A DNA stretch of 64,000 nucleotides from Candidatus Abyssobacteria bacterium SURF_5 (GTDB taxonomy: Bacteria > Abyssobacteria > SURF-5), in NCBI GenBank assembly GCA_003598085.1, contig QZKU01000068.1:1-64000 (forward strand), read 5' to 3'. Below, piece by piece: positions 10,572-14,565 of this stretch. A program made the position numbers and the translations under genes. Every line of letters starts with the position of its first letter. Position 1 is the stretch's first letter. The notes below the pieces were generated by a model. That model had not been told where the DNA came from and ran no database searches. It was given only the letters and a program-made list of their open reading frames with translations.

Positions 10572-10600
10572 TTGACAAGTATACAAATGTATACTATACT
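10572..10600 (+). promoter_or_regulatory. strong sigma-70 promoter of the lexA-polB cassette
   Basis: TTGACA (10572-10577, perfect) and TATACT (10595-10600) are separated by exactly 17 nt. The predicted start is near 10607, about 50 nt before the lexA ATG. The spacer is filled by a perfect inverted repeat (separate entry), which fits repression of the whole cassette by its own first product. Confidence 0.8.
10578..10595. promoter_or_regulatory. putative LexA operator (AGTATAC-N4-GTATACT)
   Basis: AGTATACAAATGTATACT is a perfect 7-bp inverted repeat around AAAT and occupies the spacer between -35 and -10 of the lexA promoter. Its position and symmetry are those of an autoregulatory LexA box. 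The half site differs from CTGT-N8-ACAG (gamma-proteobacteria), GAAC-N4-GTTC (Firmicutes) and GTTC-N7-GTTC (alpha-proteobacteria), so it would be a lineage-specific box. I found no second copy in this window. Confidence 0.65.
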
Positions 10601-10656
10601 ATGGGCGGGAAGAGAAAGATGCCGCTGTTCAATAGCGTCGGGTGAAGGGAAAGCCA

Positions 10657-11265
10657 ATGAAAACACAATTGACCGATCGCCAGGAGATGGTGCTGAATTT
10701 CATCAAGGCTTTTACGGATCGAAACGGGTATCCTCCCACGATCCGCGAGATATGCGCGCATTTTCATTTTTTGCCGCGGGCGGCGGCGAACCATGTGAAT
10801 GCGCTCGTGAGAAAAGGGTATCTCTCGAAGGCGCCTCGCAAATCGCGTTCTCTTGAAGTGATTGGACGGAGCCGGCGCGATTTGAGGGAGATACCCATCG
10901 TGGGCCGGGTCGCCGCCGGCGAGCCGATCCTGGCGGTTGAGAACATTGAAGGAGCGATCATGCTGCCGGCTGAATGGGTTCACGGAGGAGAAAGCTTTCT
11001 GTTGCGGGTTGAGGGCGACAGCATGGTGAACGCGCACATCTGTTCCGGCGACTACGTAGTGGTGAAGCGGCAAGCGACGGCCGAGAGCGGCGATATCGTG
11101 GTCGCACTGCTTGAAGAGGAGGCGACGGTAAAACGATTTGTCAAGGAAAAGGATCGGATCGTTCTGAAGCCCGAGAACGAGCGGATGCAGCCAATAGTCG
11201 TCGAGAACGGCGCTCGATCGCTCCGGATAATAGGAAAGGTTGTGGGAGTATGGAGAACCATTTAG
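10657..11265 (+). CDS. lexA: LexA repressor heading a PolB cassette
   Basis: A 202-residue LexA. The winged-helix DNA-binding domain is residues 1-70 (LTDRQEMVLNFI ... GYPPTIREI). The Ala87-Gly88 self-cleavage site sits in VGRVAAGEP, the catalytic Ser122 in EGDSMV and Lys159 in ATVKRF, so RecA-stimulated autocleavage should be intact. A GTG at 10642 is in frame, but the ATG at 10657 is preferred because GAAGGGA precedes it and the product then begins as normal LexA does. The recA-like gene starts inside its last codons (16-nt overlap). It should repress its own cassette through the operator at 10578-10595. Whether it is the only cellular LexA or a dedicated second copy cannot be told. Confidence 0.93.
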   Translation: MKTQLTDRQEMVLNFIKAFTDRNGYPPTIREICAHFHFLPRAAANHVNALVRKGYLSKAPRKSRSLEVIGRSRRDLREIPIVGRVAAGEPILAVENIEGAIMLPAEWVHGGESFLLRVEGDSMVNAHICSGDYVVVKRQATAESGDIVVALLEEEATVKRFVKEKDRIVLKPENERMQPIVVENGARSLRIIGKVVGVWRTI

Positions 11266-11930
11266 TTTCATCCGACGAGATGCTGGAGGCAATCCGCGCC
11301 GATTTGAAGACGGCTTCGCCGGCCAACCTCATCACCGTCTATGGGCGGAGCGCATCGTCGATCACATATCTTGCCCTGTATATGGCGTTTGCCGGAGTCG
11401 CCCATCGCGTGCCGGTCGTTTTTCTGGATGGCGGCAATTCCTTTAATCCATATCTCATTTCGAAGCTGGCGCGCCGGATTGGGGCGCGTCCCGAGGAACT
11501 GCTAAGCCGCGTTTATATTTCCCGCGCGTTTACCTGCCATCAGATGCAGGCGCTGGTGGTTGATCGACTTGAAGACGCTCTTCGAAAATATTCGACCCGG
11601 GTCGCAATCGTCTCGGGGTTGCTGGACACGTTTTATGATCAGGACGTCCCTTTTGGCGAGGCATATGCGCTGCTGAATTCGGCGGCAACCGAATTTGTGC
11701 GCCTGGCGGAAGGCAGCGCTCGCATCTTGCTCGCCTGTCCCGATACGCATCTCCCCCTTGCAGACCGGCAGAAGGTTTTTTTAAGCCTTTTGAAGAAGGT
11801 CTCTCAGAAGGTGCTTCATTGTGAGGACACCGAAACCGAGAACAAGTTCATCATGGAAAAGCCGTACCGAAAACTGTATAACCGTCCGAGGAGTGCAACT
11901 CCTTCCCAGAAATTATTGGAATGGAGGTGA
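11250..11930 (+). CDS. RecA/RadA-like ATPase fold with degenerate P-loop
   Basis: A 226-residue protein. VVFLDGGNSFNPYLI and the following SRVYISRAFTCHQM align in style with Rad51/RadA/RadB proteins (the strand after Walker A, and the IxxxRAxTxxQ block). RVAIVSGLLDTFYD sits where Walker B should be. The P-loop itself reads GRSASSIT (residues 32-39), lacking the GK(T/S) core, so nucleotide hydrolysis is doubtful. By position between LexA and a polymerase it resembles ImuA, the RecA-fold accessory factor of mutasome cassettes; RecA-like proteins also accompany archaeal PolB2. It overlaps lexA by 16 nt and is followed after 6 nt by the small gene, so the genes are co-translated. It is not the main recombinase. 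Confidence 0.7.
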   Translation: MENHLVSSDEMLEAIRADLKTASPANLITVYGRSASSITYLALYMAFAGVAHRVPVVFLDGGNSFNPYLISKLARRIGARPEELLSRVYISRAFTCHQMQALVVDRLEDALRKYSTRVAIVSGLLDTFYDQDVPFGEAYALLNSAATEFVRLAEGSARILLACPDTHLPLADRQKVFLSLLKKVSQKVLHCEDTETENKFIMEKPYRKLYNRPRSATPSQKLLEWR

Positions 11931-11936
11931 TGGGCA

Positions 11937-12203
11937 GTGGGAAGAACAGTTTTACCCATTGCACAGGTTATCCAACAGGAACGAGATGAATGGGCGAAAT
12001 TCCGCCGCGTTCTCAGGCATGAGGATCAGCAGGCATTTGACGAATTGTTCGGCATCGCGAAGTACCACTCCCCCGCCTTCGCATATGCATCGCGACCCGT
12101 CCCTACGGAAGCAGTTTTCATGTCCATCCTGCTCGAACATCAGAAAACGATCGTGCGGCTGCAAAAGCGGCTCGAGGAACTGGAGCGCCCGCAGAAAGAG
12201 TAG
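11937..12203 (+). CDS. small conserved protein of the PolB cassette
   Basis: An 88-residue protein starting at GTG 11937, with a near-consensus GGAGGTGA 7 nt upstream. An ATG overlapping the previous stop gives only 19 codons and was rejected. It begins VGRTVLPIAQVI, has an acidic/aromatic middle (EWAKFRRVLRHEDQQAFDEL) and ends in a likely coiled coil (ILLEHQKTIVRLQKRLEEL). From memory, small archaeal proteins with a GRT start, FRR..R..DQ..FD.LF core and a SI.LEQ..RI end look similar, which would fit the archaeal flavour of the neighbouring polymerase. No enzymatic motif is visible. A bridging role between the RecA-like protein and polymerase is inference. Confidence 0.65.
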   Translation: MGRTVLPIAQVIQQERDEWAKFRRVLRHEDQQAFDELFGIAKYHSPAFAYASRPVPTEAVFMSILLEHQKTIVRLQKRLEELERPQKE

Positions 12204-12276
12204 CCCGTTATTTTTACGGCCCGGCGCGCGCAAACATTCTGCCGATTCCTGGTCACGAAGGAATGACCTTTATGAA

Positions 12277-14565
12277 ATGCCCGTCCCTGCTTCTCGTTCG
12301 GCGAGGAAAGAAAAGGACAATTTCTTCATTAAGAGAACAGGCCATCAACCCGGAGCGTTTCGCTTGCATACCGGCTGGTTATTCGACATTTATTTCGATG
12401 AGCGCGGAATGACGTTGTGGATGATCGATGGCGAAGGCGAACGCATCCGTCTGACCATTCCGTACAAACCTTCATTTTTTGTCGATGGGTCGCCGCCTGT
12501 CGTGCGTCGGGTAAACGAGACCCTGAAAAAGAAGAGGAAACCGATATCGGTTTCCCCGGCAAAGCAAACCGACTTCTGGACCGGCAAGAGCAGATCGGTT
12601 CTTCGCATATCGACGGAACCATCTCATTTTCACGCGCTGGTAAATCAGGTCTCGCGGATCGGCGGCGTGGAATTGTTCAATTGCGATATTCCGCCGGAAC
12701 AATTATTTTTCTATGAGACCGATCTGTTTCCTCTCGCTTTCTGCGAATTTGAATATTCGCATGACGGCGCAATCCGACACATCCGCAGCCTCACCATGCC
12801 ATGGGATATGACGTACACGCTGCCGCCGCTGGTTATCATGAAGCTTACCGCCTCTCCGAACGGCGCAAATCCCAATTACGGCGGGAGAAATTGCCCGCTG
12901 CGAGTGGAAATCGAGGGAAACGAATATGTTCTGGAAAATGAAGAACTGCTTGAAACTCTTGAGAAAATGCTGCTTCGTCACGACCCGGACGTGATCTCGA
13001 CCGAGTGGGGAGACTCATTCATTATCCCGCGGCTGCTCCAGATGACGCGAAGTTGGAGAAAACCGCTTTCATTCAACCGGGACAGGCATCGCGATGTCAC
13101 GACGCGGCGGGGCGCGTCCTATTTCTCATACGGTCGAATTGTGTATCGCGCGCCCGCGCAAAACTTTTTCGGGCGCTGGCATATCGACATTGAGAATTCG
13201 TTTATCGCATCGGAGACGGGCCTTGACGGCCTGTTTGAACTGGCACGCCTTGCGAAAATTCCGATACAGCGCCTGGCGCGGACATCGCCCGGAACGGGCA
13301 TCTCCTCCATGCAGTTGAATATGGCCGTGCGCGAAAACATTCTCATTCCCTGGCGGAAGCGCATGCCCGAAGACTTCAAATCGGGACTCGAGCTTCTTGT
13401 TACCGATAAGGGGGGGCTGGTATATCTGCCGAAGCCGGGCGTATATGATGCGGTGATGGAAATCGATTTTGCATCGATGTATCCTGCGATCATGGTGAAT
13501 CACAATATCTCTCCCGAGACAATCAACTGTTCGTGCTGCGAGGGAGCGGCGGTGCCGGAAATCGGCTACCACGCCTGCACCCGGCGCCGGGGGCTGATTC
13601 CCAAGGTGCTCGAACCGATCCTGGAGAAGCGGCGGGTGTATAAGCAAATGGCCAAAGAGACGCGCGACGCCAAGATGAGGGCGGTGTACAAGCGGCGGCA
13701 AACGGCGTTAAAGTGGATGCTGGTCACCTGCTTCGGATATCTCGGGTATAAGAACGCGCGTTTCGGCAGAATCGAGGCGCACGAGGCGGTGACGGCGCTG
13801 GGACGCGAGAAACTTCTCCAGGCAAAGGAGATCGCCGAACGGAGGGGCTTTCAACTGGTGCATGCGATTGTCGATTCGCTGTGGGTTCGGAAGGACGGCA
13901 TGACAGAAGTCGAGCAAAGCGAACTCCTGAAGGAGATCTCGGAAACCGTCGGCATAACGATCTCACTCGAGGGAAATTACCGGTGGATTGCATTCGCTCC
14001 CTCGAGAACGGCGTCCGAAGTTGCCGTCGCCAATCGCTATTTCGGCCTCTTCGAGAACGGCGAGATGAAACTGAGAGGCTTGGAGGTGAGGCGGTCCGAT
14101 ATGCCTCCCATCGTAAAGAGCATGCAGGCCGAGATGCTTTTGGTTCTTTCTCATGCGGCAAATGCGGAAGAATACCGACTGAAAGAACCGGAACTCATGG
14201 GCATCCTCAACAAGTATCTTGCAGAAGTAAGGAGCGGGAAAGTTTCCGCCGAGAACCTGGTGATCTCGCGGAAAATGTCGAAAAATCCGGCTGACTATAA
14301 AACCAATACCGCCATGGCCGCCGCCAGTAAAGCGCTGGCCGCGGCAGGAGTGAATCCGCAGCCGGGCGAGCGAGTGGACCTGGTCATCGTGGATTCGCAA
14401 GCACGGGATCAGATAATAAAGGCGATCCCTTATACTCCCGGTGTCGAGAAGGTGGACTCCTATGATGTTGAGCAGTATTCGGAGCTATTGATTCGAGCTG
14501 CAGAGGCTATTCTTTTGCGGAAGATTACAAAAGAAGACATAAGAAAGGGGCGGGCCGCCAAATAA
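12277..14565 (+). CDS. PolB2-like family B DNA polymerase, exonuclease-dead
   Basis: A 762-residue polymerase if started at ATG 12277; the frame is open further upstream, but that part overlaps the two preceding genes and is not polymerase-like. Motif A is intact (EIDFASMYP, Asp397). Motif B is changed (LKWMLVTCFGYLGY, about 478-491, lacking the usual KxxxNSxYG asparagine). Motif C keeps one carboxylate (IVDSLW, Asp533) in place of DTD. The exonuclease region has lost its acidic residues: Exo I reads LVIMKL (185-190) and Exo II EWGDSFIIP without the FD aspartate. Cysteines 418, 420, 421 and 434 form a possible metal site. This pattern matches PolB2 (Sulfolobales Dpo2), the divergent family B group linked to damage-induced mutagenesis. 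As the last gene of a LexA cassette it is probably a translesion or mutagenic polymerase. Confidence 0.85.
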   Translation: MPVPASRSARKEKDNFFIKRTGHQPGAFRLHTGWLFDIYFDERGMTLWMIDGEGERIRLTIPYKPSFFVDGSPPVVRRVNETLKKKRKPISVSPAKQTDFWTGKSRSVLRISTEPSHFHALVNQVSRIGGVELFNCDIPPEQLFFYETDLFPLAFCEFEYSHDGAIRHIRSLTMPWDMTYTLPPLVIMKLTASPNGANPNYGGRNCPLRVEIEGNEYVLENEELLETLEKMLLRHDPDVISTEWGDSFIIPRLLQMTRSWRKPLSFNRDRHRDVTTRRGASYFSYGRIVYRAPAQNFFGRWHIDIENSFIASETGLDGLFELARLAKIPIQRLARTSPGTGISSMQLNMAVRENILIPWRKRMPEDFKSGLELLVTDKGGLVYLPKPGVYDAVMEIDFASMYPAIMVNHNISPETINCSCCEGAAVPEIGYHACTRRRGLIPKVLEPILEKRRVYKQMAKETRDAKMRAVYKRRQTALKWMLVTCFGYLGYKNARFGRIEAHEAVTALGREKLLQAKEIAERRGFQLVHAIVDSLWVRKDGMTEVEQSELLKEISETVGITISLEGNYRWIAFAPSRTASEVAVANRYFGLFENGEMKLRGLEVRRSDMPPIVKSMQAEMLLVLSHAANAEEYRLKEPELMGILNKYLAEVRSGKVSAENLVISRKMSKNPADYKTNTAMAAASKALAAAGVNPQPGERVDLVIVDSQARDQIIKAIPYTPGVEKVDSYDVEQYSELLIRAAEAILLRKITKEDIRKGRAAK

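Follow-up and report, generated by a model that had tools for sequence, protein, structure and literature searches.

A four-gene block behind a single promoter

The locus analyzed here lies within a 64,000-nucleotide stretch of DNA (the window) from Candidatus Abyssobacteria bacterium SURF_5, contig QZKU01000068.1, and occupies positions 10572 to 14565. It comprises lexA, a RadA-like gene, a gene for a protein of 88 amino acids (aa) and a family B DNA polymerase gene, polB2, all on one strand and behind a single promoter (Table 1). The source genome (G000) is bacterial and consists of 5.10 Mb in 145 contigs, with the window on contig C68. The lexA and RadA-like genes overlap, and 6 bp separate the latter from the gene for the 88-aa protein. 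The neighbors to either side are encoded on the opposite strand, which leaves the block on its own. The tight four-gene block described in the initial annotation is therefore borne out by profile matches, coordinates, and common strand. A 914-aa open reading frame (ORF) was rejected as the extent of polB2; of the two starts given in Table 1, the TTG is likelier, since GGAG is found 8 nt upstream of it and relatives begin there. Very probably, this is an operon for a bacterial PolB2 mutasome (lexA-iRadA-PPB2-polB2) that is governed by a local LexA dedicated to it. The machine it encodes, PolB2 with two helper proteins, is of archaeal origin and probably error-prone.

Table 1. Positions in the window of the cassette genes and promoter elements
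Feature	Positions	Strand	Evidence
Core promoter: -35 TTGACA (10572-10577), 17-bp spacer, -10 TATACT (10595-10600)	10572..10600	+	11/12 consensus matches
Putative private LexA operator AGTATACA-AA-TGTATACT in promoter spacer	10578..10595	.	8/8 arm pairs
lexA, 202 aa, helix-turn-helix (HTH) and S24 autopeptidase	10657..11265	+	TIGR00498, PF00717, PF01726
iRadA, 226 aa, RadA/Rad51 fold without Walker A	11250..11930	+	TIGR02236; structure matches
PPB2 / arCOG07300 homologue, 88 aa, GTG start, N-terminal MGRT	11937..12203	+	MGRT conservation; helical model
polB2, gene for a family B DNA polymerase with two possible starts (ATG 12277, TTG 12364)	12277..14565	+	PF00136, NF004416

Properties of the four proteins

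The cassette LexA matches TIGR00498 with 222 bits, twice the cut-off of 111, and retains the intact cleavage site and Ser/Lys dyad that had been read from the sequence at the outset, namely, the Ala-Gly pair (VAAGEP), the serine (GDSM), and the lysine (TVKR). The RecA/RadA-fold protein is also confirmed. The RadA-like protein gives a weak match to the radA model (TIGR02236, E=2e-7), and its AlphaFold2 model, built from a 44-row alignment with a predicted local distance difference test score (pLDDT) of 88, finds RadA, Rad51, and Dmc1 as its best PDB matches in Foldseek (E about 1e-9; template modelling scores of 0.6-0.7). Its Walker A motif is gone, with GRSASSIT in place of GxxxxGKT and no GxxxxGK[ST] present. 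A RadA fold of 226 aa that carries neither the N-terminal domain nor the ATPase motif identifies the protein as iRadA. The 88-aa protein starts with MGRT, which is nearly invariant among 33 aligned relatives, and is modelled as three helices (pLDDT 85), the first of them broken at residue 19. It fits the description of PPB2 in PMC11791011 as a protein of about 90 aa with an N-terminal MGRT and three helices; a fold search with the model returned no significant match.

The polymerase scores 142 bits against PF00136 and 452 bits against NF004416, the latter under that model's cut-off of 516. Assignment as an E. coli-type Pol II (PolB) was rejected, with NF004421 reaching 84 bits against the 452 of NF004416 and both DxD and ExoII lost. 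In an alignment of 87 bacterial relatives, the first Asp of DxD is absent throughout (0/87) and the second is always present (87/87), the motif reading IVD (AIVDS) in the window. The Asp of motif A is likewise kept in 87/87. The D(K/R) motif before the palm, TDKGGL in the window, has its D in 87/87 and K or R in 77/87. The position of the ExoII Asp, located by alignment to the corresponding part of P. abyssi Pol, is occupied by Ile in the window protein (GDSFIIP) and by Ile or Leu in 84 of the 87, and ExoI is not conserved.

The loss of the first catalytic Asp in all 87 bacterial sequences would fit a catalytically dead PolB2 in a complex that acts at stalled forks as a scaffold or regulator, an idea put forward in 2014. 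We consider this quite improbable, as the other catalytic positions are kept in 86 to 87 of the 87 sequences, for which a dead enzyme would have no need, and archaeal Dpo2, which has lost this Asp as well, is active and required for induced mutagenesis according to PMC11791011, which cites PMC7390963 and PMC8764526 for this.

Relationship to described systems

The initial annotation knew of no described bacterial system of this make-up. The claim of novelty is wrong for the cassette as such, because the same four-gene locus appears in PMC4104785 and the complex is named in PMC11791011. Makarova et al. (2014) place lexA inside the same predicted operon in some bacteria, for example, Leptospirillum ferriphilum LFML04_0990-0993 (PMC4104785). 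That locus shares with ours all four gene families, lexA included, in one predicted operon; it belongs to another organism, and its description, in the available part of that paper, includes no operator or promoter. Timinskas et al. (2025) modelled a PolB2-iRadA-PPB2(3) heteropentamer, named it the PolB2 mutasome, found iRadA-PPB2-PolB2 to be the only bacterial gene order, and reported enrichment of lexA near bacterial polB2 (PMC11791011). The window cassette agrees with that account in gene order, MGRT arm, lost DxD Asp, D(K/R), dead exonuclease, inactive RadA, and nearby lexA. A 2026 survey of bacterial polymerases ranks PolB2 as a major bacterial group (PMC12926913), and Sulfolobus Dpo2 drives damage-induced mutagenesis, as stated in the available portions of PMC7390963 and PMC8764526 and summarised in PMC11791011. 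The word 'promoter' does not occur in the main text of PMC11791011, and a putative private LexA site and several independent recruitments of LexA are what the present analysis adds. The function was read correctly at the outset and its kind was already known; the evidence for a private operator is new.

In lexA2-imuA-imuB-dnaE2 cassettes, a second LexA heads a damage-tolerance polymerase operon that includes a RecA-like protein. Those cassettes differ in having a family C polymerase and a Y-family ImuB partner, neither of which is found in the window cassette. Assignment to this type was rejected, as the window polymerase belongs to family B; the sole Y-family gene found in G000 is on another contig, C85. 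A second likeness is to the E. coli Pol V mutasome (UmuD'2-UmuC-RecA), which also combines a polymerase, a Rad51/RecA-fold subunit, and a small oligomeric subunit with an N-terminal arm (PMC11791011). Its polymerase is of the Y family and its RecA is a real recombinase, whereas iRadA has no ATPase site. The proposal that the RecA-like protein plays the role of ImuA stands as far as a RecA-like partner goes; the published parallel is RecA in the Pol V mutasome, and either comparison is only an analogy.

Conservation of the cassette

A scan of GTDB species genomes yielded at least 561 loci encoding relatives, with record titles that include Nitrospirota, Chloroflexi, Ignavibacteria, Acidobacteria, Methylomirabilota, and others, and 80 loci were kept. 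Together with other searches, these provided 72 loci with enough upstream DNA to count neighbors. iRadA is found upstream of the PolB2 relative in 68 of these and PPB2 in 69, so that the conserved neighborhood expected from the initial annotation is present; a LexA-type gene sits directly upstream of the cassette in 35.

The phylum is sampled in the searched collection by three genomes, G000, G001, and G002. G001 and G002 represent related genera of the window's own family. G001 has all four genes, with 57-73% identity over the main aligned stretches. In G002, lexA and iRadA are present and the cassette is cut by the contig end; the position of this pair led us to reject the absence of the cassette from that genome. 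As such, the lexA-iRadA start of the cassette occurs in 3/3 genomes of the phylum and all four genes in two.

A palindrome in the promoter as candidate LexA operator

The promoter spacer had been described as a perfect palindrome. This holds for its arms, which form 8+8 pairs and fill the spacer between -35 and -10; it does not hold for the central AA, which is not palindromic, and the final base belongs also to the -10 hexamer. The putative operator stretch for the window LexA is AGTATACAAATGTATACT. The exact sequence GTATACNNNNGTATAC occurs a single time in the 5.1 Mb of G000, and the core AGTATACAAATGTATA exactly once each in G000, G001, and G002, always before the cassette lexA. Between the lexA upstream regions of G000 and G001, the only long match is an identical 31-bp block (BLAST E 6e-13) that spans -35, the palindrome, and the start of -10, with flanks that do not align. 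The block is retained in G002 with small changes, one of which alters a palindrome base. The palindrome is thus conserved in relatives, as the initial annotation had anticipated.

A wider comparison used 28 cassette lexA promoters, not all independent as several are from close relatives, among which a perfect 8-2-8 palindrome is found in 9 (0.4% of dinucleotide shuffles) and at least 7/8 pairs in 21 (9% of shuffles). In L077, L088, and L094, the best-scoring palindrome is not at the promoter and probably arose by chance. The palindromes vary from lineage to lineage, most of them sharing an ACA-NN-TGT core, and this variation follows the recognition helix of the LexA: PRAA, PRAV, or LRAV helices pair with TATACA or TAAACA half-sites (window, G001, G002, L073, L095, L099, L104, L131), and SAV-type helices pair with GAACA half-sites (L074, L082, L084, L130, L143). 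It is mainly because helix and palindrome type vary together that we read the palindrome as a LexA site, and on these sequence comparisons it may be proposed as the binding site of the cassette LexA. A literature search did not find the palindrome described as a LexA box.

It is conceivable that the palindrome is instead the site of another regulator, or an AT-rich coincidence of two promoter hexamers. Its last base does double as part of the -10 hexamer, and palindromes can arise in AT-rich spacers, with 1% of shuffles of this region reaching 8/8. Such a reading seems highly improbable given that the palindrome is unique in the genome and retained where neighboring bases are lost, and that the same core, with other outer bases, recurs at other cassette lexA promoters in step with helix type.

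A probable private repressor and a second LexA

A second full LexA is encoded in G000 on C142, divergent from a DinG-like helicase gene, and its promoter contains the direct repeat CTTTCGCC-TTT-CTTTCGCC. In a LexA tree, G001 and G002 contribute the cassette LexAs that cluster with that of the window (support 100/99), apart from the other LexA of G000, which clusters with other LexAs. As the core is unique in each genome and the second LexA has a different box, the cassette LexA looks like a private, single-target repressor.

Alternatively, the cassette LexA could act as the cell's general SOS repressor, with a wide regulon to which this operon belongs. In G226, G300, G386, G398, G400, and G402, the cassette LexA is the only one above the cut-off and may serve alone there, with the caveat that several of these genomes may be incomplete. 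For G000, in which regulon size was judged by sequence-pattern searches, we regard a general role as unlikely: apart from the one exact site, only AATATGCAAATGTATA on C99 comes within two mismatches over 16 positions; the nearest other GTATAC-core sites, both with one mismatch, lie inside unrelated ORFs; recA has no box; and the second full LexA stands beside a DinG-like helicase gene.

A wide regulon is not claimed for the second LexA either. With at most one mismatch, TTCGC-N6-TTCGC occurs 742 times in G000 against 532 in the reversed control, a mild enrichment, and among the loci checked, only this LexA's own promoter has a promoter-embedded site of the TTCGC type. A further HTH and S24 peptidase gene on C107 of G000 (L058, 4425-5057) falls below the LexA cut-off and is possibly a prophage or accessory repressor.

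Diversity of predicted cassette control

Cassettes from other lineages appear to be controlled in several ways. Four lexA-less cassettes (L059 in G074, and L096, L101, and L102, the latter three recorded as Acidobacteria or Acidobacteriia) have TTCG-N7-TTCG in the promoter, for which about 0.008 occurrences are expected per region. The lexA genes of G074 and G410 (L152 and L162) bear the same or a near-identical repeat as the lexA-less cassettes of these genomes. Several cassettes from Ignavibacteria and related organisms (L098, L125, L128, L129, L134) contain ACGACA-N-TGTCGT inside the promoter. In Nitrospira cassettes (L076, L078, L091, L103, L105, L135), LexA is replaced by a repressor with an XRE-type HTH, its N terminus read by eye, and an S24 peptidase; most of these genes are preceded by the palindrome-like ATGTAACA-TTT-TGTGACAT.

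From this we infer that PolB2 operons have repeatedly come under damage control, through either a captured repressor with its own site or the box of a resident LexA. A broader formulation would be that the operons repeatedly captured a LexA-type repressor (canonical LexA of several origins, or XRE-S24 in Nitrospira) and acquired a private operator within the core promoter, insulating the polymerase from the general SOS regulon, with lexA-less operons carrying a resident LexA box; we judge the chances for and against this version to be evenly balanced.

Proposed mechanism

A bacterial PolB2 mutasome under direct LexA control and with a RecA-like partner, as put forward in the initial annotation, is the best explanation of the locus, with the conserved neighborhood and the conserved palindrome in its support. 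Most probably, a dimer of the cassette LexA binds the palindrome, covers the space from -35 to -10, and represses its own operon only. RecA activated on single-stranded DNA would then induce self-cleavage of LexA at Ala-Gly, so that the whole operon is switched on together. One iRadA and three PPB2 subunits would assemble with PolB2 in the arrangement of the published models, in which iRadA stands in for the RecA/Rad51 subunit and the MGRT arm of PPB2 points to the polymerase active site. Based on the work on Sulfolobus Dpo2, as far as it is presented in PMC7390963, PMC8764526, and PMC11791011, PolB2, which lacks proofreading and whose metal site is altered, may extend mispaired or damaged primer ends, which would provide damage tolerance at the cost of mutation. 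Resynthesis of LexA would shut the operon off, and the second LexA, through its different box, would act on another gene set.

Several observations weigh against this account. In about half of the loci, the cassette lacks a LexA-type gene. Where LexA is present, it derives from several sources, with at least four forced changes on the tree and no support there for a single cassette clade, so that the pairing was recruited and not strictly inherited. In the cassette LexAs of L088 (3905-4496) and L094 (485-1082), which have no clear promoter palindrome, the catalytic Ser is replaced (REGM for GDSM), and to judge from these residues they could not cleave themselves. The LexA-like proteins of L083, L086, and L087 have RGG in place of the Ala-Gly pair but retain both Ser and Lys, and their site, GGTATACA-TT-TGTATACC, is perfect. 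As some cassette LexAs have lost the Ser or the cleavage pair, cleavage-controlled induction cannot hold in every lineage. At the promoter of the single recA gene of G000, neither LexA box is visible by eye. The C-terminal end of iRadA, SQKLLEWR, is a loose and unconvincing match to the sliding-clamp (beta-clamp) motif that some members carry in iRadA or PolB2, and G001 shows no match. In the literature, we found no experiment in which a bacterial PolB2 operon was shown to be bound, induced, or mutagenic.

To judge from the at least 561 loci encoding relatives, PolB2 mutasomes are widespread among bacteria, in lineages with few tools. Since the cassette has a candidate operator of defined sequence, a conserved promoter, and its own LexA, damage control of an archaeal-derived polymerase becomes directly testable, and the capture of repressors and divergence of operators can be studied in it. 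The surprise is moderate, given that the cassette itself was already known.

Further features of related cassettes

In G001 (L055, C259, 931-7055), lexA, iRadA, and polB2 carry in-frame, repeat-like peptide insertions (NPPLSPFAKGDEGRF, FPLCKGGALISPF, and similar), which lengthen the PolB2 frame to 1086 aa compared with 762. They resemble palindromic elements inserted in Rickettsia genes.

At L060 (1270-7769, in G226), iRadA and PPB2 lie about 2.7 kb apart, with other sequence between them, and PPB2 is preceded by a second promoter-like element that includes the shared stretch GTATTAGTCAT.

A scan of viral contigs with a single protein gave no PolB2 relatives, and a scan with an alignment gave 16 loci, the best at 38%. 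L226 and L230, on IMG/VR contigs filed as viral, encode PolB2 relatives of 38% identity and nearly full length.

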